NCBI RefSeq assembly: GCF_000403135.1
Contig: NZ_AQPN01000101.1
Coordinates: 1 to 64,000 of the forward strand
Length of the DNA: 64,000 bases
From: Arcticibacter svalbardensis MN12-7
Lineage (GTDB): Bacteria; Bacteroidota; Bacteroidia; Sphingobacteriales; Sphingobacteriaceae
Direction: 5' to 3'
Below, one piece after another: positions 50,624-62,841 of the stretch. Under the pieces are notes generated by a model that saw only the letters and a list, made by a program, of their open reading frames with translations, made no database searches and was not told the origin of the DNA. Both the position numbers and the translations under genes were made by a program. How positions within the stretch are numbered: the stretch's first letter is position 1; every line of letters starts with the position of its first letter.

Positions 50624-51750
50624 TCAAAGTTCAATAAACTGGCTTCCGTAAAAGGAACAGACAAGCGTAATAAGGGGTATACCAGCTGGACGCATCTGGT
50701 CTTGATTTTTTTCCGCCAATTTGCGAAAAGCCAATCGGTACGTGATATTGGTAATGGTCTTCGCTCTGCTACAGGTAACGTAAATCATATGGGTACAAAA
50801 GGCACCTTCAAAATCAAGTGTCAGCTGCCAGAACAAGCATAGCGATTATACCCTGTTTAAAGATTATTATTTCTGCCTGCTGGAAAGTCTGGAAAAGCAG
50901 GCCGGGTTCAAGCAGGTGAAATTCAGGATCAAGTCCAAAATCTTTTTGCTGGACTCTACAACTATTAGTCTATGCCTGTCCTTATTTGACTGGACAAAGT
51001 ACAAAACAGCCAAAGGAGGTGTTAAAATGCATACCTTATTGGATCAATCTGCCGGCTTACGTGCATATAACAGATGGCAAAACGGCCGATGATAAAGGGG
51101 GCATAGGAGGTTCCTTTCATAAGGGATTGTGGCAGACCGTTTTTACAATGATTTCTATCTGCTGAATGTCCGGGACAGCAAGGGTGTATTTATTGTCATC
51201 AGGCACAAAGAAAACCTTCAGTACGAACCAAAAAGGCGAAATCACCCTTCCTGAAAACAGGCATCAGCATATCATGATAGATAAACGGATTGAACTCAAA
51301 ACTCCTGCCTCTAAGAAAAAAATACGGTAAGAAACTCAGAAGGGTGGCAATCTGGGACGAGAAAAACAAGCAGACCATAGAGCTCATTACCAATCAAATG
51401 ACCTGGACAGCAAACACGATTAGCAAACTTTATAAAAGCCGCTGGCAGGTTGAGGTTTTTTTTTAAGGGAAATTAAACAGGACCTGCATATTAGATCCTT
51501 CGTGGGAACAACAGAAAATGCGGTAATGATACAGATCTGGACCGCACTAATTACGATACTCATCTTAAAAGCGCTCAAGGCTATGGCTCAGTATAACTGG
51601 TACCTATCAAATCTGATCGCCTTCATTAGGCTGAACATTTTTGTTAAAATAAACTTTCAGAAATGCTTGGATAAACCATTTGATGAACCAGCAAAAGTGC
51701 ATCCTAATAACAGCCTACGGGGGATTCTTTTTTGGAAACCCTCCCAATAG
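50624..51750 (+). pseudogene. IS4-family transposase, nearly full length but multiply frameshifted
   Basis: Pieces in changing frames follow the order of a full DUF4372/IS4 transposase: LVLIFFRQFAKSQSVRDIGN, KFRIKSKIFLLDSTTISLCL with the first DDE Asp, LFDWTKYKTAKGGVKMHT, VADRFYNDFYLLNVRDSKG, then KSRWQVEVFF + KEIKQDLHIRSFVG and TTENAVMIQIWTALITILIL. At least four frameshifts and several stops interrupt it. The N-terminal ~60 residues are poorly preserved. No clear terminal repeats were found. Confidence 0.85.
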
Positions 51751-53193: not shown

Positions 53194-53376
53194 TTAATTA
53201 ATCTGTCTATAATGAAACCATGTTCTAATGATTGATTCCTATCCTCCTTTTAAACTTAAAAGTCGATAGGGGGGAGTAGGATTTTAATCTCTACAGAATC
53301 TCTTCAGAATCTCTTCAGAATTGGGTCATAACTTAGATATATAAACAATGATATATCTATTTTGACTCAAATTCAA

Positions 53377-54147
53377 ATGAAATTAAGCCTAATCATAGTT
53401 TGGTTGGCTTTATCCACTTCAACTAGTTACGCACAAAAAATAAATTCTCAAGAAACAGATACCCTGTTAAATGTAAGCGAATTTACTCCCTATCGATCTC
53501 CACAATTAAAAGGATTAATTGTTCCTGCTGTTGCTATCGCTTATGGCTTTTCAGCATTACATAGTAAATTACTAGGTCAGCTTGATTTTAGTACGAATGC
53601 CGAACTTAGAGAAGACCACCCTAACTTTGCACTGCATGCTGATAATTATCTTCAATATGCCCCCATAGTTGCGGTTTATGGATTGGATTTAGCAGGTATC
53701 AAAAGTAAACACAACTTAATAGATCGTTCGGCTTTATTGCTTTTATCTGGGGCAATCATGAGTGTTAGTGTTGGCACAACGAAGTCAGCAACACATCGCT
53801 TACGTCCAAATGGAGATAATTACCATTCTTTTCCCTCTGGCCATACCGCAACAGCTTTTATGTCTGCAGAATTTCTTCATCAGGAATATAAAGATCAATC
53901 TCCATGGTACAGTATCATGGGTTATACTGCTGCTACTGCGACTGGAGCTTTAAGAATGTATAATGAAGCGCATTGGTTTAGTGATGTTATTGCGGGTGCC
54001 GGTTACGGAATTCTTTCCACTAAAATTTCTTACTGGGTCTATCCCTATATTAAATCGAAAATGTTTCATGGTAAGCAAGTAAATACACTAATAAGTCCAG
54101 TACATCAACAAGGATATACTGGACTTATGTTTTTACGTCAATTTTAA
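53377..54147 (+). CDS. PAP2-superfamily phosphatase, exported
   Basis: 256 residues from the ATG at 53377, which begins a signal peptide (LSLIIVWLALSTSTSYAQ); an upstream in-frame TTG is less likely. The three acid-phosphatase motifs are seen: KSATHRLRP (K-x6-RP), FPSGHTA (PSGH) and YNEAHWFSDVIAG (H-x3-D). Membrane-embedded PAP2 enzymes dephosphorylate undecaprenyl pyrophosphate, phosphatidate or lipid A. Here one or two weak hydrophobic stretches follow, so it may sit at the outer membrane or periplasm. Convergent with the cytochrome b561 gene, 11 bases apart. Confidence 0.9.
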   Translation: MKLSLIIVWLALSTSTSYAQKINSQETDTLLNVSEFTPYRSPQLKGLIVPAVAIAYGFSALHSKLLGQLDFSTNAELREDHPNFALHADNYLQYAPIVAVYGLDLAGIKSKHNLIDRSALLLLSGAIMSVSVGTTKSATHRLRPNGDNYHSFPSGHTATAFMSAEFLHQEYKDQSPWYSIMGYTAATATGALRMYNEAHWFSDVIAGAGYGILSTKISYWVYPYIKSKMFHGKQVNTLISPVHQQGYTGLMFLRQF

Positions 54148-54158
54148 AAAATTAAAGA

Positions 54159-54791
54159 TTAGCTATTTTTACCTCCGTTAATCATGTCGGATACAATTCC
54201 GTTACTCTCTTTTCTCTCCGCCATAACCACACCTGCAATATGTACTAGAATGAAGGCGATTATAAGATACATACAAAACCCATGCACTTCTTTTATGCTA
54301 TGGCTCAATGGTTTAGGAATGCCTAGTTCGTTATGAAATGCGAGGGATAAACCGGTTACTACCATGATGGTTAATAGAAGATAGAAAACTAGATATAGAA
54401 TCTTAACCGTTAATCCATGACGTACTAACAAGGTGCGTTGCCGGGCTACAAAAAATCTCTGGTAGAGTTTTTTAAGACTTATGGAAAATTTTTGATCCCT
54501 AAGCTGAAATGCCTCCAAAATAAGCCTGAATAAAAATAGTGTTGCAACGGCATATCCAAAGTAGATATGCACACCCCAAACACGTTCTTGCAGCTCATGC
54601 GATAGCTCTTTAGCAGCCTGCGTTGCTCTCATCGCTGGTCCCTCAAATAAGGTAGAATTGATTAATACCGTAATTAAGGACCCTGAGATAGCAATGGCAC
54701 TAAGCCAATGCCATAATCGGAGTGGGGAAGAATTCTTTATATATTGCGGTAAATTTTCGACATCCTTGTGGACAGGTTCAATAATTGCCAT
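54159..54791 (-). CDS. Cytochrome b561-type di-heme membrane protein
   Basis: 210 residues with four membrane helices. Candidate heme ligands are His28 (LRLWHW), His75 (VHIYFG), His170 (EVHGF) and His184 (LVHIAG), the layout of the Ni/Fe-hydrogenase b-type/b561 family. Such subunits take electrons from the quinone pool to a periplasmic partner. Last gene of the six-gene redox run, 41 bases after the DUF3570 gene. Neighbouring Rieske, thioredoxin and ApbE genes suggest it feeds an extracytoplasmic electron chain. Confidence 0.85.
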   Translation of the reverse strand: MAIIEPVHKDVENLPQYIKNSSPLRLWHWLSAIAISGSLITVLINSTLFEGPAMRATQAAKELSHELQERVWGVHIYFGYAVATLFLFRLILEAFQLRDQKFSISLKKLYQRFFVARQRTLLVRHGLTVKILYLVFYLLLTIMVVTGLSLAFHNELGIPKPLSHSIKEVHGFCMYLIIAFILVHIAGVVMAERKESNGIVSDMINGGKNS

Positions 54792-54832
54792 GATTGAATT
54801 TTTAAATGAATTTAAGAAAAGGTTCCATCTGA

Positions 54833-56056
54833 TTATTTGATTTTCAAGTTTAATGAAATAATATTGGATGTCAAATTTGTGGATCGACTATAATGCCCAT
54901 ATCTTAATTCCAGCATATTCAAATGTTGCCAACCAAAGACACCTTTAGGGGGTGCAAATCGGATCCCAGTACCGTAGAAACTACTGTTTAAAGTTGATAA
55001 ATCATAGTCGGAAGTAAAGTATTGTACAGTTGGATCATGTTGGCCATAAGCAGCAAAGTAGCGCGTTCCTTTTTGATTGTTATACCGATAAAACGGGCTT
55101 ACGGATATAAATGAACTCAATTTAATCGGTACTTCTATTTCTGCAGTATGTGCCCTTATTCCCCAGTTATCCATATAATACCGGTAAAAAGTACGGATTA
55201 CAAATCGATCACCTAAGAAATAATTCAACCTTGCTCCGATAGGTAACTTATATCGGTTGTCGGGTAAGGTTTCTGCGCGTAAAGATCCATCTGTAAAGTA
55301 ATTTCGCTGGTATTTCGTTGCCAGTAAACCATGCTGATAAGCGGGTTCGACAATTAACTCTACCTGCAGACTCTTGTTGATCACTTGGGAGAGACCGAAT
55401 GAAGCATTGAATGAGTTTCTTGGCTCTGACCCTACTCCTCGCGAGTCGCCTTCTGATCCTGATCCATAACCATCTGTTCTGAGCTCAACTGGCAGGATGA
55501 CTTTCCATGTATCTAAAAATGCCTGCAGTTTAAAGTCAAACTGTGTGTTTTTATTTTTTGATAAACGGGTTAAATTAAATCCAGCACCAAGGGATTGGTA
55601 ATCATATTCCTGAGAATAGGAGCCGGTAAAACCATAAGAATTGCCTGTTTCATCATTCGAATGCGTCCAGTTTACGGATGGATAGATCCGGATATCAGAC
55701 ATAGAAGCAGAAGAAATACTATTTGGATCGATTTTATCTGATGAAGCAGAGGTATAATGATCTACGCCTAACTCAAATAGGAAGGTATTTTTTTTGCCTT
55801 GTTTGTTGTACTTAGACAACTGCAAGTCAAATGTATTAGCAATGTCGGTTAACTTTTCAGTACCAATACCACCGGTTACAGCGGAGTTATTACCATCCTG
55901 ATGGTAATAGGCTGAAACGAAGTTGGCTTCGTCGAAATGAAGTTTACGTGATTTATACTGAGAAGTATCACCACTTGGAAGTTGATGTACATTTTGTGCA
56001 TAAGTGCCGAACATACCGAGGTAAAGTGCAGCAATACACAGATAGAGTTTTTTCAT
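54833..56056 (-). CDS. DUF3570 outer-membrane beta-barrel protein
   Basis: 407 residues with a signal peptide (ending GTYAQN). The rest is alternating strands with aromatic girdles, typical of an outer-membrane barrel, e.g. VNWTHSNDETGNSYGFTGSYSQEYDYQSLGAGFNLTR and RFVIRTFYRYYMDNWGI. The last strand ends SNIISLNLKIK. DUF3570 proteins are regularly encoded next to DUF4266 lipoproteins and ApbE, as here. The function is unknown; a surface role linked to electron transfer or cofactor delivery is inferred from context. Confidence 0.88.
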   Translation of the reverse strand: MKKLYLCIAALYLGMFGTYAQNVHQLPSGDTSQYKSRKLHFDEANFVSAYYHQDGNNSAVTGGIGTEKLTDIANTFDLQLSKYNKQGKKNTFLFELGVDHYTSASSDKIDPNSISSASMSDIRIYPSVNWTHSNDETGNSYGFTGSYSQEYDYQSLGAGFNLTRLSKNKNTQFDFKLQAFLDTWKVILPVELRTDGYGSGSEGDSRGVGSEPRNSFNASFGLSQVINKSLQVELIVEPAYQHGLLATKYQRNYFTDGSLRAETLPDNRYKLPIGARLNYFLGDRFVIRTFYRYYMDNWGIRAHTAEIEVPIKLSSFISVSPFYRYNNQKGTRYFAAYGQHDPTVQYFTSDYDLSTLNSSFYGTGIRFAPPKGVFGWQHLNMLELRYGHYSRSTNLTSNIISLNLKIK

Positions 56057-56071
56057 GTTTAGATCAGATAG

Positions 56072-56302
56072 TTAATTACAGCCGCAACCTCCACCACTTT
56101 TCCCTCCGTTAGCACCTGATCCGCCTTCGCGGTACAACTGGAAACTTTGTTCGAACTTTTGTATTTTTCGCGCTGATAAAGCCATATCAGCATCATTTAA
56201 TCGGTTTTTTTGATACGGCTTTACCGTACTACAGGCGCTTAGGAGATTAAGCATGATTAGTCCTGCACAAAACAGGAAAACTCCTTTTTTTGAAAATTCC
56301 AT
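56072..56302 (-). CDS. DUF4266 small lipoprotein
   Basis: 76 residues from the ATG at 56302, one base after the ApbE stop; a longer frame exists upstream inside apbE. The lipobox LLSAC puts the lipid-bearing Cys at residue 24. The mature protein has the family start VKPYQKNRLNDADMAL and the tail REGGSGANGGKSGGGCGCN with two cysteines. The stretch EGGSGAN resembles the ApbE flavinylation motif D-x-x-S-G-A-T but has Glu for Asp and Asn at the acceptor position. The protein would face the periplasm or cell surface and partner the DUF3570 barrel. Confidence 0.87.
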   Translation of the reverse strand: MEFSKKGVFLFCAGLIMLNLLSACSTVKPYQKNRLNDADMALSARKIQKFEQSFQLYREGGSGANGGKSGGGCGCN

Positions 56303-56303
56303 A

Positions 56304-57263
56304 TTAGCGTTTAACATTAATGTTTTTTGAAGTATACATGCGGTCAAAGTCATCAATAATAATACAGGCTACTTGTTTAAGCTGGTTGATCATGTCGAGT
56401 CCTACCCGAACTCCCATTACTACAACCGGAGTTGCCATTGCATCAGCTAACTCGGCGCTTGGGCCAAGTATGCTGACACTTTTAATACCACTTACAGGTA
56501 AGCCTGTTTTAGGGTCAATAGTGTGCGAATACCTTTTCCCGTTTATAGTCGCATACTTTTCGTAATTTCCGGATGTTGCAATGGCCGTATTACTGATATT
56601 TATTGAAGAAAAAGGACGTGTGCATTGGTCTGGGGCGGCAATACCAATCGTCCATGGGGCTCCGTTTAACTGTGTGCCCCAGGTAATTAAATCACCTGCG
56701 GCATTCACTATTCCACTTTTTATGCCTGCGTTTTTTAAAACAAACATAGCCCGGTCGGCAGCATATCCTTTACCAATTCCACCAAAACCTATGCGCATAC
56801 CTGCATGTTTAAGCATGACCGTCGAGTGATCAAGGTCAACTAGTACATTTTGATAATTGATAAGACTCACAGACTGGAGGGCTGTTTCGCAGCTTGGTAA
56901 ACTGGTCATATTCACATCGAAATTCCATAAACTTTTATCTATAGATCCATAGGTAATATCAAATGCCCCCTGAGTCAATTCGGATATTTTTAAAGACCTC
57001 TGAATCAAATGAATCACTTCTTCATCTACCTGAACCGGTTTAATTCCAGCATTTTTATTAATATAATTCGTCTGACTGGTATCTTTAAAAGTGGATAATA
57101 ATTCTTCAATCCTTTGCACTTCAGCAATAGCAGTATCAATTGCTTTGGCACCAGACTCCTGCGTGTCAGAAATTACTGTAAATTCAAACCGGTTGCCCAT
57201 GAGTTTTAGAATTCGATTACTGGATACTTCTGCTAACATACCTGGTTTAATGAATGGATTCAA
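56304..57263 (-). CDS. apbE: ApbE-family FAD:protein FMN transferase
   Basis: 319 residues. The family blocks are GNRFEFTVI near the start, AFDITYG, the FAD-binding GGIGKGYAADRA, GIVNAAGDLITWG, ATSGNYEKY ... YSHTIDPKTGLPV and the C-terminal ADAMATPVVVMG with the Mg-binding Asp. It links FMN to Ser/Thr of partner proteins. Most ApbE proteins carry a lipoprotein signal; this one starts MNPFIKPGMLAEVSSNRILK and has none. Its start overlaps the thioredoxin gene by 17 bases and its end abuts the DUF4266 gene, so the run is tightly coupled. Confidence 0.93.
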   Translation of the reverse strand: MNPFIKPGMLAEVSSNRILKLMGNRFEFTVISDTQESGAKAIDTAIAEVQRIEELLSTFKDTSQTNYINKNAGIKPVQVDEEVIHLIQRSLKISELTQGAFDITYGSIDKSLWNFDVNMTSLPSCETALQSVSLINYQNVLVDLDHSTVMLKHAGMRIGFGGIGKGYAADRAMFVLKNAGIKSGIVNAAGDLITWGTQLNGAPWTIGIAAPDQCTRPFSSINISNTAIATSGNYEKYATINGKRYSHTIDPKTGLPVSGIKSVSILGPSAELADAMATPVVVMGVRVGLDMINQLKQVACIIIDDFDRMYTSKNINVKR

Positions 57264-57672
57264 TCTCTTTCACAAACTTATCTGGTGTTTCATTGGGGTA
57301 ACCATCCCATGACTTTAAGACCTTACCTTGTTCATCAATGAGTAGGGTGTAGGGGAACTTTCCTTCGTTATTATATTTTTCAGCCAGTGCCTCATTCAGT
57401 TTCACCTGTTCTGCCGGAAGACGGTTCTTCTTTTGTCTCGGAAAATCAGCACGCACCAATACAAGATGATCAGAGGCATATCTTTCAAATGTTTCCGATT
57501 CCAGAATCTCCTTGCGAAGACGAATGCAGGGGCCACACCAGTCTGAGCCTGAGAAGTTAAGTAAGATTAGTTTATGGGATGTTGTGGCTTCTTTTGTGGC
57601 CACATTAAAGTTACCAAGCCATACCGTAGGTACAGTAAGCAAGGAAAATAGTGTTATAAATAGTAGTTTCAT
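57247..57672 (-). CDS. Thioredoxin-like exported protein
   Basis: 141 residues. A signal peptide (MKLLFITLFSLLTVPTVWLG) is followed by a thioredoxin fold with the catalytic pair Cys46/Cys49 in SDWCGPCIRLRKE and the cis-proline in KFPYTLLI. It is probably a periplasmic disulfide reductant or cofactor-maturation helper, perhaps for the cysteines of the DUF4266 tail (inference). Its 3' end overlaps apbE by 17 bases; it begins 4 bases after the Rieske gene. Confidence 0.92.
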   Translation of the reverse strand: MKLLFITLFSLLTVPTVWLGNFNVATKEATTSHKLILLNFSGSDWCGPCIRLRKEILESETFERYASDHLVLVRADFPRQKKNRLPAEQVKLNEALAEKYNNEGKFPYTLLIDEQGKVLKSWDGYPNETPDKFVKEIESIH

Positions 57673-57676
57673 GATC

Positions 57677-58105
57677 TTATGAATAAACCCGTAATAAAGT
57701 ACCTGTAACTTGTGTTTTATATGTGGTTAAGGACCTTGATGCTGGTCCCTGTGTAACTGAACCGCTTTCAGAGAAGGTGGCACCATGATTTGGACAGTAA
57801 AATCTACTGCTGCCGCTCTGATAGGTTAAAGTATAGTTTTCATGTGTACATGACCTTTGCACGGCAATATAAGTTCCTGCTTTGGTACGCGCTACAATTA
57901 CTCCATTGGATGCCAAATAACCTCCATTAGCCAGTAAAGTAGCATTTGCTGATGCATTTAAATCTAGGGTGAAATCTACATTGGAAGACCCGGACACACC
58001 CGAAGAAGGGCCATCTGTGCTTTTAGCGCAACCGCCCACACAGTTTAGTAAAGCCAGAGAAGCTACTCCCATTCCCATACTCGTTAAAAAATCTTTTCTG
58101 TTCAT
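57677..58105 (-). CDS. Rieske [2Fe-2S] protein, exported
   Basis: 142 residues. The N-terminus NRKDFLTSMGMGVASLALLNCVGGC is a signal with an RK instead of a full twin arginine and a possible lipobox Cys. The Rieske cluster motifs are C86-T-H88 (SCTHENY) and C104-PN-H107 (FYCPNHGATF). The cluster carries one electron at fairly high potential. It heads the six-gene run after the two-component genes. Electron partner is probably the cytochrome b561 or a flavinylated protein of the same operon (inference). Confidence 0.92.
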   Translation of the reverse strand: MNRKDFLTSMGMGVASLALLNCVGGCAKSTDGPSSGVSGSSNVDFTLDLNASANATLLANGGYLASNGVIVARTKAGTYIAVQRSCTHENYTLTYQSGSSRFYCPNHGATFSESGSVTQGPASRSLTTYKTQVTGTLLRVYS

Positions 58106-58186: not shown

Positions 58187-59440
58187 TTACTTATTAAATT
58201 GAATGATGAAATGGTGCAAAGGCTTGTCATACGTATATTTAAGATCGTACTGCAGCCGGTTGCAGATTTGCTTCAAAATAGAGAGTCCTAAACCGGTGCC
58301 CTCGGATGTGGTATCTTTGTAAAAGCGTTCAAATATTTTAGCCTCATCTAAACCATCATTTGTACTCGTATTTGAAAAAATAAGTTGTGTGGCGGTTAAA
58401 CTTATATTAATCGTTCCCTTTTCTATATTGTGCCTGATGGCATTACTGAAAAGATTGTTGAGCAGAATTTCTAGCAATTGCTGGCTTATAAATAGGGTAG
58501 TGGGCTCAAGATGAAGATGAATAGTTAATTTTCTTTTCAAAATCAGTTCCTGAAAATGCAGGAGTTTCTCTTCTATGGCCTTACTTATTAAAATATCTTC
58601 CTGATCATTCAACAGATTATTATCAATCTTTACCAGCATCAATAAGGACTGGTTTAATTTAGTCAGCCTGGAAGTTGCTTTGTACATATCTGTCAAAAGT
58701 TCACTTTCTTCCCTGCCCAATAAATTAGATTGCAGCATTGTATCCAGCTTAGAATTAATTACGGCTAATGGGGTCATCATTTCATGAGACGCATTTTCTG
58801 TAAATAATTTAATTTCCTTGTAGTCTGATTTTACTTTTGACGAAAGATCGACAAATGCGTTATTGAGGTCACTGAATTCTTTTATTGATGTTTTAACAGG
58901 TTTGAATGGAACATCCTGATTGACATTGAATGCTTTTATGTTAATTAAGAGTTGTTTGAAGGGATTCCATAAACTCCTTATCATAAATCTATTTACAAGT
59001 AAAAGGATAACCAGTAATGCTAAAACAGGCAATATGATCACCTTTAAAATGCTTTTGATTTGTTCTTCATTTTCGACTTTTGAAGCGATGATAGTAACCT
59101 TGTACTGTTCGCCTTTAAGCGTTATCGTAGATTGAAGGTATCGAGCTGATTCCATACGGTGTTTTTCATCATTATAAAAAACAGTATCGGCAATAATTTT
59201 GGAATTGTTTTCAGCTGTCTTCTTATATTGGATGATAAGCTCTTCAAAACTGTTGGGCTGGTATAAATTATTTTTACCCGCTGTATATTGTTTTACTTCC
59301 ATGAGCTCTTCTTCCAACTGATCATCCATTTGCTGAGCAAGATAATAGCTTAGTGTTCTGTAAAAAAGAAGACCTATAATGATTAATCCAACACAACTAA
59401 CCAAAAACAAAACCCTGTTATACCTGCTGAAGAGTCTCAA
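58187..59440 (-). CDS. Sensor histidine kinase
   Basis: 417 residues. Two membrane helices (~9-28 and ~130-152) enclose a periplasmic sensor of about 100 residues. A HAMP-like linker is followed by the H-box NASHEMMTPLAVINSKLD (His ~218), N-box LNNLFSNAIRHNIEKG, and a shortened F/G2 region FERFYKDTTSEGTGLGLSIL. It partners the response regulator whose stop overlaps its start by 4 bases. The signal is unknown. The run of redox genes downstream in the same direction makes it a candidate controller of them. Confidence 0.94.
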   Translation of the reverse strand: MRLFSRYNRVLFLVSCVGLIIIGLLFYRTLSYYLAQQMDDQLEEELMEVKQYTAGKNNLYQPNSFEELIIQYKKTAENNSKIIADTVFYNDEKHRMESARYLQSTITLKGEQYKVTIIASKVENEEQIKSILKVIILPVLALLVILLLVNRFMIRSLWNPFKQLLINIKAFNVNQDVPFKPVKTSIKEFSDLNNAFVDLSSKVKSDYKEIKLFTENASHEMMTPLAVINSKLDTMLQSNLLGREESELLTDMYKATSRLTKLNQSLLMLVKIDNNLLNDQEDILISKAIEEKLLHFQELILKRKLTIHLHLEPTTLFISQQLLEILLNNLFSNAIRHNIEKGTINISLTATQLIFSNTSTNDGLDEAKIFERFYKDTTSEGTGLGLSILKQICNRLQYDLKYTYDKPLHHFIIQFNK

Positions 59441-60114
59441 GATTCTACGAATTTATACCCAACACCATAAATAGAATGAAAGTAATCCTTACATCCTGCA
59501 TCGGTTAACTTTTTTCTGATATTTTTAATGTGGGTATAGATGAAATCAAAACTATCTGCCATATCTGCATCATTGCCCCAGATATGTACTGCTGCTGCAG
59601 ACTTTGAGATCACTTTAGATTTATTGGTCATGAAATATAAAAGAAGATCAAACTCCTTTCTGGTGAAATATACCGTATGTGAATTCACTTTGACTTCCAT
59701 GGCGTGGCTATCAATTTCCAATTCATTGAAAACAATCCGGTCGCTTCCATTAAACTGGCGTCTTCTGATTATTGACGTAATGCGTGCATATAATTCAGAC
59801 AAGTGAAAGGGTTTAACCAGGTAGTCATCAGCACCTAAGCTCAGTCCTTCAATTCGCTGATCTACAGCATCGCGTGCTGATATGATTAAAACGCCATCCG
59901 GTTTATTCATCTTTTTTATAAACTTCAGCAAATTAAGTCCTTCTCCGTCAGGGAGGGTCAAATCAAGCAACACACAGTCGTAGTCATAAAGGGCGATTTT
60001 CTGATAGGCATCATTGTAGGTCGAAGAGCAGTCACATACATTACCCTCGGCAATCAGGTATTGATGAATACTTTTTTGTAAACTTTCTTCGTCTTCTACA
60101 ATTAGAATTTTCAT
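59437..60114 (-). CDS. OmpR/PhoB-family response regulator
   Basis: 225 residues. The receiver has EDEE at residues 7-10, phospho-Asp51 in CVLLDLTLPDGEG, and Lys in ADDYLVKPF. The C-terminal winged helix contains YFTRKEFDLLLYFM and ends with FIYTHIKNIRKKLTDAGCKDYFHSIYGVGYKF. It acts with the kinase encoded in overlap. It lies 50 bases after the P-type ATPase gene, in the same direction, so either metal stress or redox state could be its input. Confidence 0.95.
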   Translation of the reverse strand: MKILIVEDEESLQKSIHQYLIAEGNVCDCSSTYNDAYQKIALYDYDCVLLDLTLPDGEGLNLLKFIKKMNKPDGVLIISARDAVDQRIEGLSLGADDYLVKPFHLSELYARITSIIRRRQFNGSDRIVFNELEIDSHAMEVKVNSHTVYFTRKEFDLLLYFMTNKSKVISKSAAAVHIWGNDADMADSFDFIYTHIKNIRKKLTDAGCKDYFHSIYGVGYKFVES

Positions 60115-60164: not shown

Positions 60165-62672
60165 TTAACTTTTTTTAACGAATTGCCTGCGGGTGTAAAA
60201 AAGCTTATAAAGTTCGATCCACAGAACTCCGGCAAAGGCGACAGCAAAGCAAAGTAAGAGATCAAGGCCACTTAAAGCCTCAAATTCAAAGATATTTCGA
60301 ATAGCTGGTGTATAAATAGACAGAAATAGGACGATTAATGAGATGCCTATAATGATGGGAATAAATATGTTTTTATATTGAATAGTAGTAATTATGGAGT
60401 AATAGAATGATCTGTTGGCAAAAGTTAGGAAAAGATTAGAAAAAATGAGTGTAGTGTAAATTACGGTACGTACCAGTGTTTCGTTATGATCGTTTGCCAT
60501 AAAATAATAACCTATTCCTAAACAGGCAGCTGTAATAGCGAATCCCTGGATTATACTTACTGATAATTCTTTAAATGAGAAAAATGAAGAACTCATTTTT
60601 CTAGGTTCTTTCTCCATCGATCCCGCTTCTATTGGTTCATTTTCGAATACGATGGAACAAGTAGGACCCATAATAAGCTCTAGAAATATCACATGTATAG
60701 GAGAAAAGATATCAGTAAATTTCCATAGGAGCAGGAGTGGAAGTGTTACGATTAGAATAATTGGAATATGAATAGAGATAATATATTGAATGGCCTTCTT
60801 TAAGTTTTCGTAGATCCTTCTGCCTAAGGCTACGGCGTCGGTCATATGGCTCAGATCATCATCCATTAAAATTAAAGAAGCGGCGCTTTTAGCTACTTCG
60901 CTTCCTCTTAAGCCCATAGCAATACCTATATGTGCGGCTTTAAGTGCTGGCCCGTCATTTACACCATCTCCGGTCATGGCCACTACTTCACCATTGGATT
61001 TCAGGGCTTCTATTACCTTAAGCTTGGCTTCCGGAAACATTCTGGCATACATGTCCACCACTTTTACTTGTTGGCAAAGCGTTGTTTGATCCATATCCAT
61101 TACTTCCTTACCAGTTAATACGGAAGAGCTATTTTTAAAATGAATCTGGTTAGCGATAGAGATAGCGGTATCGGGATAATCACCTGTGATCATTTTTACA
61201 CTGATGCCGGCCTGGTAGAACTGCTGAAGTATTTTCGTCATGTTCGCTTTCGGGGGATCGTAAAAAGCAATCAGACCAATAAAGACAAATTCGAATTCCT
61301 GTTGTGTTTTAGGCAAGTTGGATAGATCCTGATTTGATTTAGCAACAGCCAATACTCTAAAACCCTTTGATGCATAACTCTTTGTTTTGATTACAATACC
61401 GGCTTTCTGCTCATCAGTTAAGTTAGATTGGTTCAATACCCCTTCAACACTGCCTTTCACTGCGATAATGGACGTGCCTTTTTTATTGCTCAGGACATGT
61501 GTCATAATAGGTGGGGTTCCACTCAAAGGATATTCATGTACGAAAACGAAATCTTTCCTTTTATCTTCGGGAGCTACTTCTCCATAAATATGGTGAATAG
61601 ATTTCTCCATTTGATCAAATGGATCGGTTTCTGATGCCCATAAAGCATATTCCAGAACCTCATTTAAGCTGTAGGCATCTTTGGTATAGTCAAAATCTTT
61701 ATCCGAAGCAAAATCATAAATGGCGGAGATTTGCATTTTATTCTCCGTAATGGTTCCTGTTTTATCAGCACATATTACAGTGGCTGCACCTAATGTTTCT
61801 ACGGTATGTGGGCTTCGGGCAATAACTCCTTTTTTGTACAAATGATAGGCGCCTAATGCCATGAAGGTACTGAACGCTACCGGAATTTCTTCTGGCAATA
61901 CAGACATAGCCAGCGTCAATCCATGAAGTAATCCATTCAACAGATTACCTGAGGTATAATAATTAACTCCCCAAACAATGAGGAAAGCAATCAGTCCAAA
62001 AATAACCATGGAACGGATGAAACTTTTTATCTGAATCTGTAGAGGCGTTTTAGTAGTTTCAATTTCCTGAAGGGACTGTCCAATTTTACCTAAAGCGGTA
62101 TTCTTTCCAATGATTTCTACACGAGCAATACTGGAGCCGGACATGACTGTACTTCCCTTAAATAATTGGTTATTCGGTTCATTCAGGTCTTTAGCGATGG
62201 CAAGTGACTCTCCAGTGAGTAAACTTTCATTGACGGAGAAATCATTTGACTTCAAGATCTTCCCATCAGCGGGAACAATATTGCCGTCTTCTACAACAAT
62301 TAAATCACCGATTACGAGTTCTTCAGTATCAATATTTGTTGTAATACCAGCTCTGATGACTTTAGCATGGGGACTAGAGAGCTTTTTTAAAGAATCCACC
62401 GCATTTCTGCTTCTGTTTTCCTGAAACAGAGAGATAGCAGAAATGAAAAGCAAGGCCACCAGCATGATGATGCCTTCTTTGTAATCGCCTAAAATAAAAT
62501 ATATAGATGCCGCGCAAACAAGGATAAAGAATAGGGGCTCAGTCACCACATCTTTTACTATTAACCAAAAAGGGGATTCATTTTCAGTAAAAGCTGAGTT
62601 AGATCCGTTCTTTAATCGGCTGGCAACGACTTCTTCAGGAGACAATCCCTTTAAGTCTATGTTATCTTCCAT
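60165..62672 (-). CDS. P-type cation-transporting ATPase (P2 type)
   Basis: About 835 residues from the ATG at 62672 (MEDNIDLKGLSPEEVVASRL); 20 further in-frame residues upstream are unlikely to be translated. Domains: actuator with LLTGES, phosphorylation motif ICADKTGTITENKM, nucleotide loop, hinge MTGDGVNDGPALKAAHIGIAMG, and about ten membrane segments. The TM4 motif is VLPEEIPVAF instead of the PEGLP of typical Ca2+ pumps, and TM6 has LELIMGPTCSIVFENEP. This group is common in Bacteroidota, and Ca2+, Mn2+ or another cation is possible. The longest gene of the minus-strand run, upstream of the two-component pair. Confidence 0.9.
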   Translation of the reverse strand: MEDNIDLKGLSPEEVVASRLKNGSNSAFTENESPFWLIVKDVVTEPLFFILVCAASIYFILGDYKEGIIMLVALLFISAISLFQENRSRNAVDSLKKLSSPHAKVIRAGITTNIDTEELVIGDLIVVEDGNIVPADGKILKSNDFSVNESLLTGESLAIAKDLNEPNNQLFKGSTVMSGSSIARVEIIGKNTALGKIGQSLQEIETTKTPLQIQIKSFIRSMVIFGLIAFLIVWGVNYYTSGNLLNGLLHGLTLAMSVLPEEIPVAFSTFMALGAYHLYKKGVIARSPHTVETLGAATVICADKTGTITENKMQISAIYDFASDKDFDYTKDAYSLNEVLEYALWASETDPFDQMEKSIHHIYGEVAPEDKRKDFVFVHEYPLSGTPPIMTHVLSNKKGTSIIAVKGSVEGVLNQSNLTDEQKAGIVIKTKSYASKGFRVLAVAKSNQDLSNLPKTQQEFEFVFIGLIAFYDPPKANMTKILQQFYQAGISVKMITGDYPDTAISIANQIHFKNSSSVLTGKEVMDMDQTTLCQQVKVVDMYARMFPEAKLKVIEALKSNGEVVAMTGDGVNDGPALKAAHIGIAMGLRGSEVAKSAASLILMDDDLSHMTDAVALGRRIYENLKKAIQYIISIHIPIILIVTLPLLLLWKFTDIFSPIHVIFLELIMGPTCSIVFENEPIEAGSMEKEPRKMSSSFFSFKELSVSIIQGFAITAACLGIGYYFMANDHNETLVRTVIYTTLIFSNLFLTFANRSFYYSIITTIQYKNIFIPIIIGISLIVLFLSIYTPAIRNIFEFEALSGLDLLLCFAVAFAGVLWIELYKLFYTRRQFVKKS

Positions 62673-62841
62673 AATGGTTATGATAGGATCGTTTAGCTGT
62701 CTTTTGAGAAAGAAAATCCTATTACTGGGCAAATATTACAATCAAAATGATAAGAAAAGATATAAATAAGAGAATGAATAAATAGTATATAATAAATGAA
62801 TGTTGCTATATTGTCTGCAATCAGTTATAAAAAATTAGCAG

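Follow-up and report, generated by a model that had tools for sequence, protein, structure and literature searches.

Where does an ApbE flavin transferase without a signal peptide meet its presumed substrate, a barrel protein of the outer membrane? The question is raised by a six-gene cluster (54159-58105, minus strand) of Arcticibacter svalbardensis MN12-7 (Bacteroidota), which lies in a stretch of 64,000 nucleotides from contig NZ_AQPN01000101.1 (positions 1 to 64,000; hereafter the window, meaning the whole stretch). A preliminary description of this DNA had named six co-directional genes, for a Rieske lipoprotein, a thioredoxin, ApbE (which transfers flavin mononucleotide, FMN, from flavin adenine dinucleotide, FAD, to proteins), DUF4266, DUF3570 and a cytochrome b561; all six were found at these coordinates, each scoring above its own Pfam cut-off (Table 1). 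With moderate confidence, we propose that the cluster is a DUF3570/DUF4266 flavinylation system in which the DUF3570 precursor would be loaded with FMN in the cytosol and then exported, its surface flavins reducing a metal, probably iron.

The core of this finding is a known system, since the combination thioredoxin-ApbE-DUF4266-DUF3570 has already been published. Meheust et al. (2021, eLife; PMC8238504) described clusters of ApbE, DUF3570, Thioredoxin_7 and DUF4266 (over 180 containing DsbD and 316 lacking it), pointed out the C-terminal CxC of DUF4266, reported VIT1 iron transporters in 25 clusters with neighbours that point to iron, and showed that the DUF3570 protein of Chlorobium luteolum is flavinylated by its own ApbE at two [S/T]GA[S/T] motifs. 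DUF3570, called uncharacterised in the preliminary description, thus has a homologue for which flavinylation by ApbE has been shown by experiment, and the same result supports the idea voiced there that this ApbE acts on its DUF3570 partner. The window cluster encodes all four proteins together and is a variant of the system, with b561 and Rieske genes and Ser-Ala-Ser motifs. The text of PMC8238504 mentions neither Rieske nor b561 and, figures aside, we found in it no discussion of a missing ApbE signal; a search of the literature available to us for DUF3570/DUF4266 returned nothing beyond this paper. We did not find the pairing of a cytosolic ApbE with an outer-membrane substrate discussed in the literature examined.

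ApbE and its missing signal peptide

The most likely start of the window ApbE is ATG 57239, 7 bases away from the stop of the thioredoxin gene; a relative with 95% identity (L073) has the same arrangement with the same gap. From this start the N-terminus (MLAEVSSNRILKLMGN) runs straight into the conserved core with no hydrophobic stretch, and a stop codon stands in frame two codons ahead of the earliest possible start (TTG 57263); a signal peptide and a lipobox were both looked for and are absent, and there is no room for a signal peptide. A 17-base overlap reported earlier arose because the upstream TTG had been taken as the ApbE start, while the gaps of 1-41 bases given with it stand (41, 15, 1, about 7 and 4 bases from b561 to the Rieske end), with the DUF4266 start most likely at ATG 56302, one base past the ApbE stop. 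The catalytic motifs (TSGNYE, HTIDP and ADAMAT) are intact, and the protein is predicted to be cytosolic.

The same holds for most clusters of this kind: 121 of 133 cluster ApbEs have no hydrophobic N-terminus (too short, too polar), and 12 carry a signal, a count that follows a stricter threshold and excludes L149 and L163 for their over-long open reading frame starts. According to the ApbE tree, the signal-less ApbEs of the main group make up one well-supported branch of 115 and the Chlorobium-type ones form another; the ApbE of a Vibrio cluster likewise has no signal. As a control, we took 20 non-cluster ApbEs from genomes of the same family, and all 20 start with a hydrophobic segment (maximal 11-residue hydropathy 2.1 to 3.6), which ties the lack of a signal to the cluster and not to the genomes or the method.

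ApbE is normally a secreted lipoprotein (PMC12052999), and it is secreted in some relatives, L087 and L105 among them. These relatives and the gene content fit the picture drawn in the preliminary description, a quinol-to-surface path in which extracytoplasmic ApbE and thioredoxin mature the DUF4266/DUF3570 pair. For the window we regard this as very unlikely: the absence of a signal peptide, with a stop codon in frame shortly before the earliest start, contradicts an ApbE outside the cytoplasm, and the Rieske protein lacks the disulphide cysteines of the bc1 type (see below). With ApbE apparently inside the cell, the DUF3570 barrel would therefore be loaded before export. A chain that is not inserted in a membrane can serve as substrate, because flavinylation of the homologue was obtained with both proteins made signal-less in the E. 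coli cytoplasm, the barrel being mostly in the pellet (PMC8238504).

DUF3570 and its candidate acceptor serines

The source genome (4.69 Mb in 149 contigs, 99.99% complete) has a single DUF3570, a single DUF4266 and a single ApbE, and contains no FMN_bind, DUF2271 or NqrB/RnfD protein, which makes DUF3570 the only substrate of a known type. Its AlphaFold model is a confident all-beta barrel (mean predicted local distance difference test, pLDDT, 87.7) whose best fold matches are generic porins; no sequence homologue of DUF3570 was found in PDB. The published motifs have counterparts at homologous places in the window protein, TSAS and SSAS, in which Gly has become Ser. Both lie in a low-confidence loop (102-121) between strands 3 and 4. 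Long loops mostly follow odd strands in the model and odd-strand loops face outward, which would place the flavins in the lumen of the barrel or on its outer side, an orientation that comes from strand counting with a periplasmic N-terminus and not from measurement.

Among 55 aligned DUF3570 proteins, A104 and S105 are each found in 54 and D99 in 47 for the first motif; A117 and S118 are each found in 49 for the second, where 38 have Ser and 13 have Gly at position 116. Ser and Gly swap at this position between close relatives (e.g. Dyadobacter L171 and L163), which suggests that both work at motif 2. By analogy with the Chlorobium protein, the window DUF3570 is presumed to carry covalent FMN on Ser105, Ser118 or both.

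The Gly-to-Ser change could also mean that the DUF3570 of this clade has lost flavinylation (SAS for SGAS), with the cytosolic ApbE serving an unknown cytosolic protein and the cluster working through thiols and Rieske/b561. Such a loss would fit the 106 loci with a signal-less ApbE in which both DUF3570 motifs carry Ser instead of Gly, and it has a parallel in Klebsiella pneumoniae, whose cytosolic ApbE serves a soluble fumarate reductase (PMC12052999). However, the acceptor Ser, Ala and Asp have stayed conserved (S105 in all but one of the aligned proteins), ApbE adjoins DUF3570 in nearly all loci, and the Chlorobium-type and Vibrio loci keep SGAS beside an equally signal-less ApbE; we therefore find a loss of flavinylation quite improbable. 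We also considered whether the ApbE signal was lost together with the Gly-to-Ser change; independent pairs on the ApbE tree gave no support for such a coupling.

On the Hymenobacter sp. DG25B plasmid (L204:4851-6103), the annotation splits DUF3570 into two neighbouring coding sequences, suggesting that this copy is broken or frameshifted.

Gene order, electron carriers and metal neighbours

Genomes of the same family and phylum, together with 80 named genomes, gave a total of 136 non-redundant DUF4266/DUF3570 loci. The exact order thioredoxin-ApbE-DUF4266-DUF3570 recurs in 112 of these loci, so the cluster is not a chance assembly, and a Rieske gene lies directly upstream of the ordered core in 49. 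b561 follows DUF3570 immediately in only four loci (the window, L073, L128 and L130), and the complete six-gene order is found in only two, the window and a Sphingobacteriales metagenome-assembled genome (L130); b561 and Rieske are therefore features of a lineage variant. The conservation of gene order, whose absence the preliminary description had named as a refuting result, thus holds for the four-gene core and for Rieske plus core, and not for the six genes as a whole.

b561 is nonetheless strongly linked to the cluster and a genuine associate of it: in 151 genomes of the family, 15 of 40 loci have it no more than 5 kb from DUF4266, as compared to 0.11 expected by position (P ~1e-28), and 8 of 40 have VIT1 at such a distance, as compared to 0.07 expected, although P values for both linkages are overstated because related genomes are not independent. 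The window b561, possibly quinone-linked, shares four membrane His with its relatives (RLWHW, WGVHIYF, KEVHGFC and ILVHIAG). DsbD is found in three Chlorobium-type loci and five others, never alongside b561, and had no match within the 16 kb examined around the window cluster; loci L101, L110 and L111 we infer to be Chlorobiaceae. That b561 and DsbD are significant alternatives was rejected (P = 0.15), and that b561 could replace DsbD in the cluster is kept as a suggestion, the numbers being too small to prove it.

The other products also agree with the list given in the preliminary description, a redox module of an outer-membrane barrel, two lipoproteins, a periplasmic thioredoxin and a b-type cytochrome. 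The thioredoxin has an intact CGPC and a hydrophobic N-terminal signal (NCBIfam DsbH 82 bits, below cut-off). DUF4266 has an invariant lipobox (Cys24) and a glycine-rich tail ending in an invariant C-terminal GGCGC (GGCGCN in the window), with the CxC present in 137 of 137 sequences; its predicted structure shows no fold of good confidence (mean pLDDT 60). A REGxSGAN tail similar to a flavinylation motif made DUF4266 a candidate for a second flavin acceptor, which was rejected because the last residue is Asn and Ala can take the place of the Ser ahead of GA. The Rieske protein has a Tat-like (twin-arginine translocation) N-terminus with a lipobox (MNRKDFL...NCVGGC) and the intact two-Cys two-His motif (CTHENY...CPNHGA), and its best PDB match is a b6f-type soluble Rieske (5cxm). 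It lacks the bc1/b6f disulphide cysteines (CTHLGC...CPCHG), as do its relatives, which makes quinol oxidation by it unlikely; to judge by its sequence, its potential is probably lower and its role that of a carrier, not of a quinol oxidase.

VIT1 iron transporters lie near 32 of the 136 loci, and CusA/CusB metal-efflux genes near 12-14, often co-directional. The latter could point to a module that protects against metal stress (copper, zinc, manganese) and is not a ferric reductase, in which the DUF4266 CxC, the thioredoxin and the flavins would set the thiol/metal redox state of the envelope. A P-type ATPase beside the window cluster and also in L073 and L198, and a response regulator akin to heavy-metal families (TIGR01387, 152 bits, below cut-off), are in line with such a role. 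The commoner neighbour is nevertheless VIT1, and the published neighbours point to iron as well (PMC8238504); we consider protection against metal stress unlikely, and iron reduction the better reading of the metal genes. Of the 28 loci with b561, 19 have a two-component regulator no more than 6 genes away, vs 10 of the 108 without b561 (Fisher P 8e-10).

Table 1. Features of the redox cluster and its surroundings in the window
Feature	Position	Strand	Support	Remark
Rieske [2Fe-2S] lipoprotein, 142 aa	57677..58105	-	PF00355 45.7 bits	
Secreted thioredoxin-like protein (Thioredoxin_7, CGPC), 141 aa	57247..57672	-	PF13899 40.2 bits	
ApbE, FAD:protein FMN transferase, 311 aa	56304..57239	-	Pfam 263.6 bits	From ATG 57239
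DUF4266 lipoprotein, 76 aa	56072..56302	-	Pfam 68.5 bits	
DUF3570 outer-membrane beta-barrel, 407 aa	54833..56056	-	Pfam 105 bits	Signal peptide; presumed ApbE substrate
Flavin acceptor candidate 1, DUF3570 Ser105	55742..55744	-	Conservation	D99-H-Y-T-S-A-S105
Flavin acceptor candidate 2, DUF3570 Ser118	55703..55705	-	Conservation	N-S-I-S-S-A-S118
Cytochrome b561 / Ni-hydrogenase type b cytochrome, 210 aa	54159..54791	-	PF01292 99.6 bits	Accessory electron-transfer membrane protein
Two-component system	58187..60114	-	Linkage	Histidine kinase 58187-59440, OmpR-type regulator 59437-60114; probable regulator
PAP2-type phosphatase	53362..54147	+	Pfam 59.8 bits	Recurrent cluster neighbour

Other observations concern the surroundings of the cluster. 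The histidine kinase beside the redox genes (58187-59440, minus strand) scores 426.7 bits with NCBIfam NF052314 (cut-off 350), named 'PorY family, T9SS' (type IX secretion system), and the family is probably broader than this control function. The P-type ATPase (60165-62732, minus strand) lies upstream of the two-component system; its best match is TIGR01522 with 447 bits, below the cut-off of 798, and its ion specificity is uncertain. A PAP2 gene is near 10 of the 136 loci. At 50916-51466 (plus strand) there is a broken transposase, an insertion sequence remnant near the cluster of which two short fragments match different parts of DDE_Tnp_1. In related clusters, a family of secreted proteins of about 130 aa is encoded directly upstream of the thioredoxin gene (L176:5780-6169, also L082, L104, L160, L181, L190, L191, L200 and L202), with no Pfam match for the two members tested (L176 and L200). 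In L064:9387-12185, a CusA-type RND (resistance-nodulation-division) transporter runs into a C-terminal outer-membrane efflux domain (ACR_tran and OEP in one protein).

Proposed path and comparison with known systems

In the path that we propose, cytosolic ApbE would transfer FMN from FAD onto one or both of Ser105 and Ser118 while the DUF3570 precursor is still unfolded. The flavinylated protein would then be exported through Sec and inserted by the beta-barrel assembly machinery (BAM), leaving the flavins in an outward-facing loop. In the envelope, b561 would take up electrons from the quinol pool or from some other donor in the membrane, and so may do the job that DsbD has in Chlorobium and Vibrio. 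The electrons would then pass over the thioredoxin and/or the Rieske lipoprotein to the CxC tail of DUF4266 and on to the DUF3570 flavins, presumably in this order. These flavins would reduce a metal at the cell surface, most likely Fe(III), as the VIT1 association suggests; the neighbouring two-component system, given its linkage, probably switches the cluster on under metal stress.

Several points weigh against this path. Signal peptides were judged by hydropathy instead of a trained predictor, and to our knowledge there is no precedent for a protein with covalent flavin crossing Sec and BAM. The source genome has no VIT1, so the link to iron comes from relatives only; the mutual exclusion of b561 and DsbD, with zero overlap, falls short of significance at the P value given above; and the Rieske gene is absent in most loci and is therefore not essential to the electron path. 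The window motifs carry Ser where the experimentally tested motifs carry Gly, and in Klebsiella a Gly-to-Ala change leaves about half of the flavinylation, with little effect from losing the motif Asp (PMC12052999).

If the proposed path is true, covalent flavins can be attached inside the cell to a protein bound for the outer membrane and travel with it through Sec and BAM, which would change both the supposed site of extracytosolic flavinylation and what export machines are thought to tolerate, and would provide a haem-free outer-membrane electron route with exact testable residues (Ser105, Ser118 and the DUF4266 CxC tail). The wider statement, that cytosolic FMN loading and passage through Sec and BAM give rise to a haem-free flavin conduit in at least Bacteroidota, Chlorobi and Vibrio, we put forward only tentatively.

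Porin-cytochrome conduits such as MtrCAB use an outer-membrane barrel and a periplasmic redox partner to move electrons out. The window cluster would work alike, with a barrel and a periplasmic redox partner; unlike MtrCAB, it has no multihaem cytochrome, with flavins and a CxC lipoprotein instead, and no common ancestry is claimed. The window ApbE is like that of Klebsiella pneumoniae in having no signal peptide (PMC12052999), whereas the Klebsiella substrate stays in the cytosol and the presumed substrate here is an exported outer-membrane barrel. A close likeness is to the DsbD/DUF3570 system (PMC8238504), which shares the PF13899 thioredoxin-like protein, ApbE, DUF4266 with its C-terminal CxC and DUF3570 as substrate, and whose occasional VIT1 we count as a further likeness; the window cluster differs from it in having a Rieske lipoprotein and b561, no DsbD, and the motifs TSAS and SSAS.

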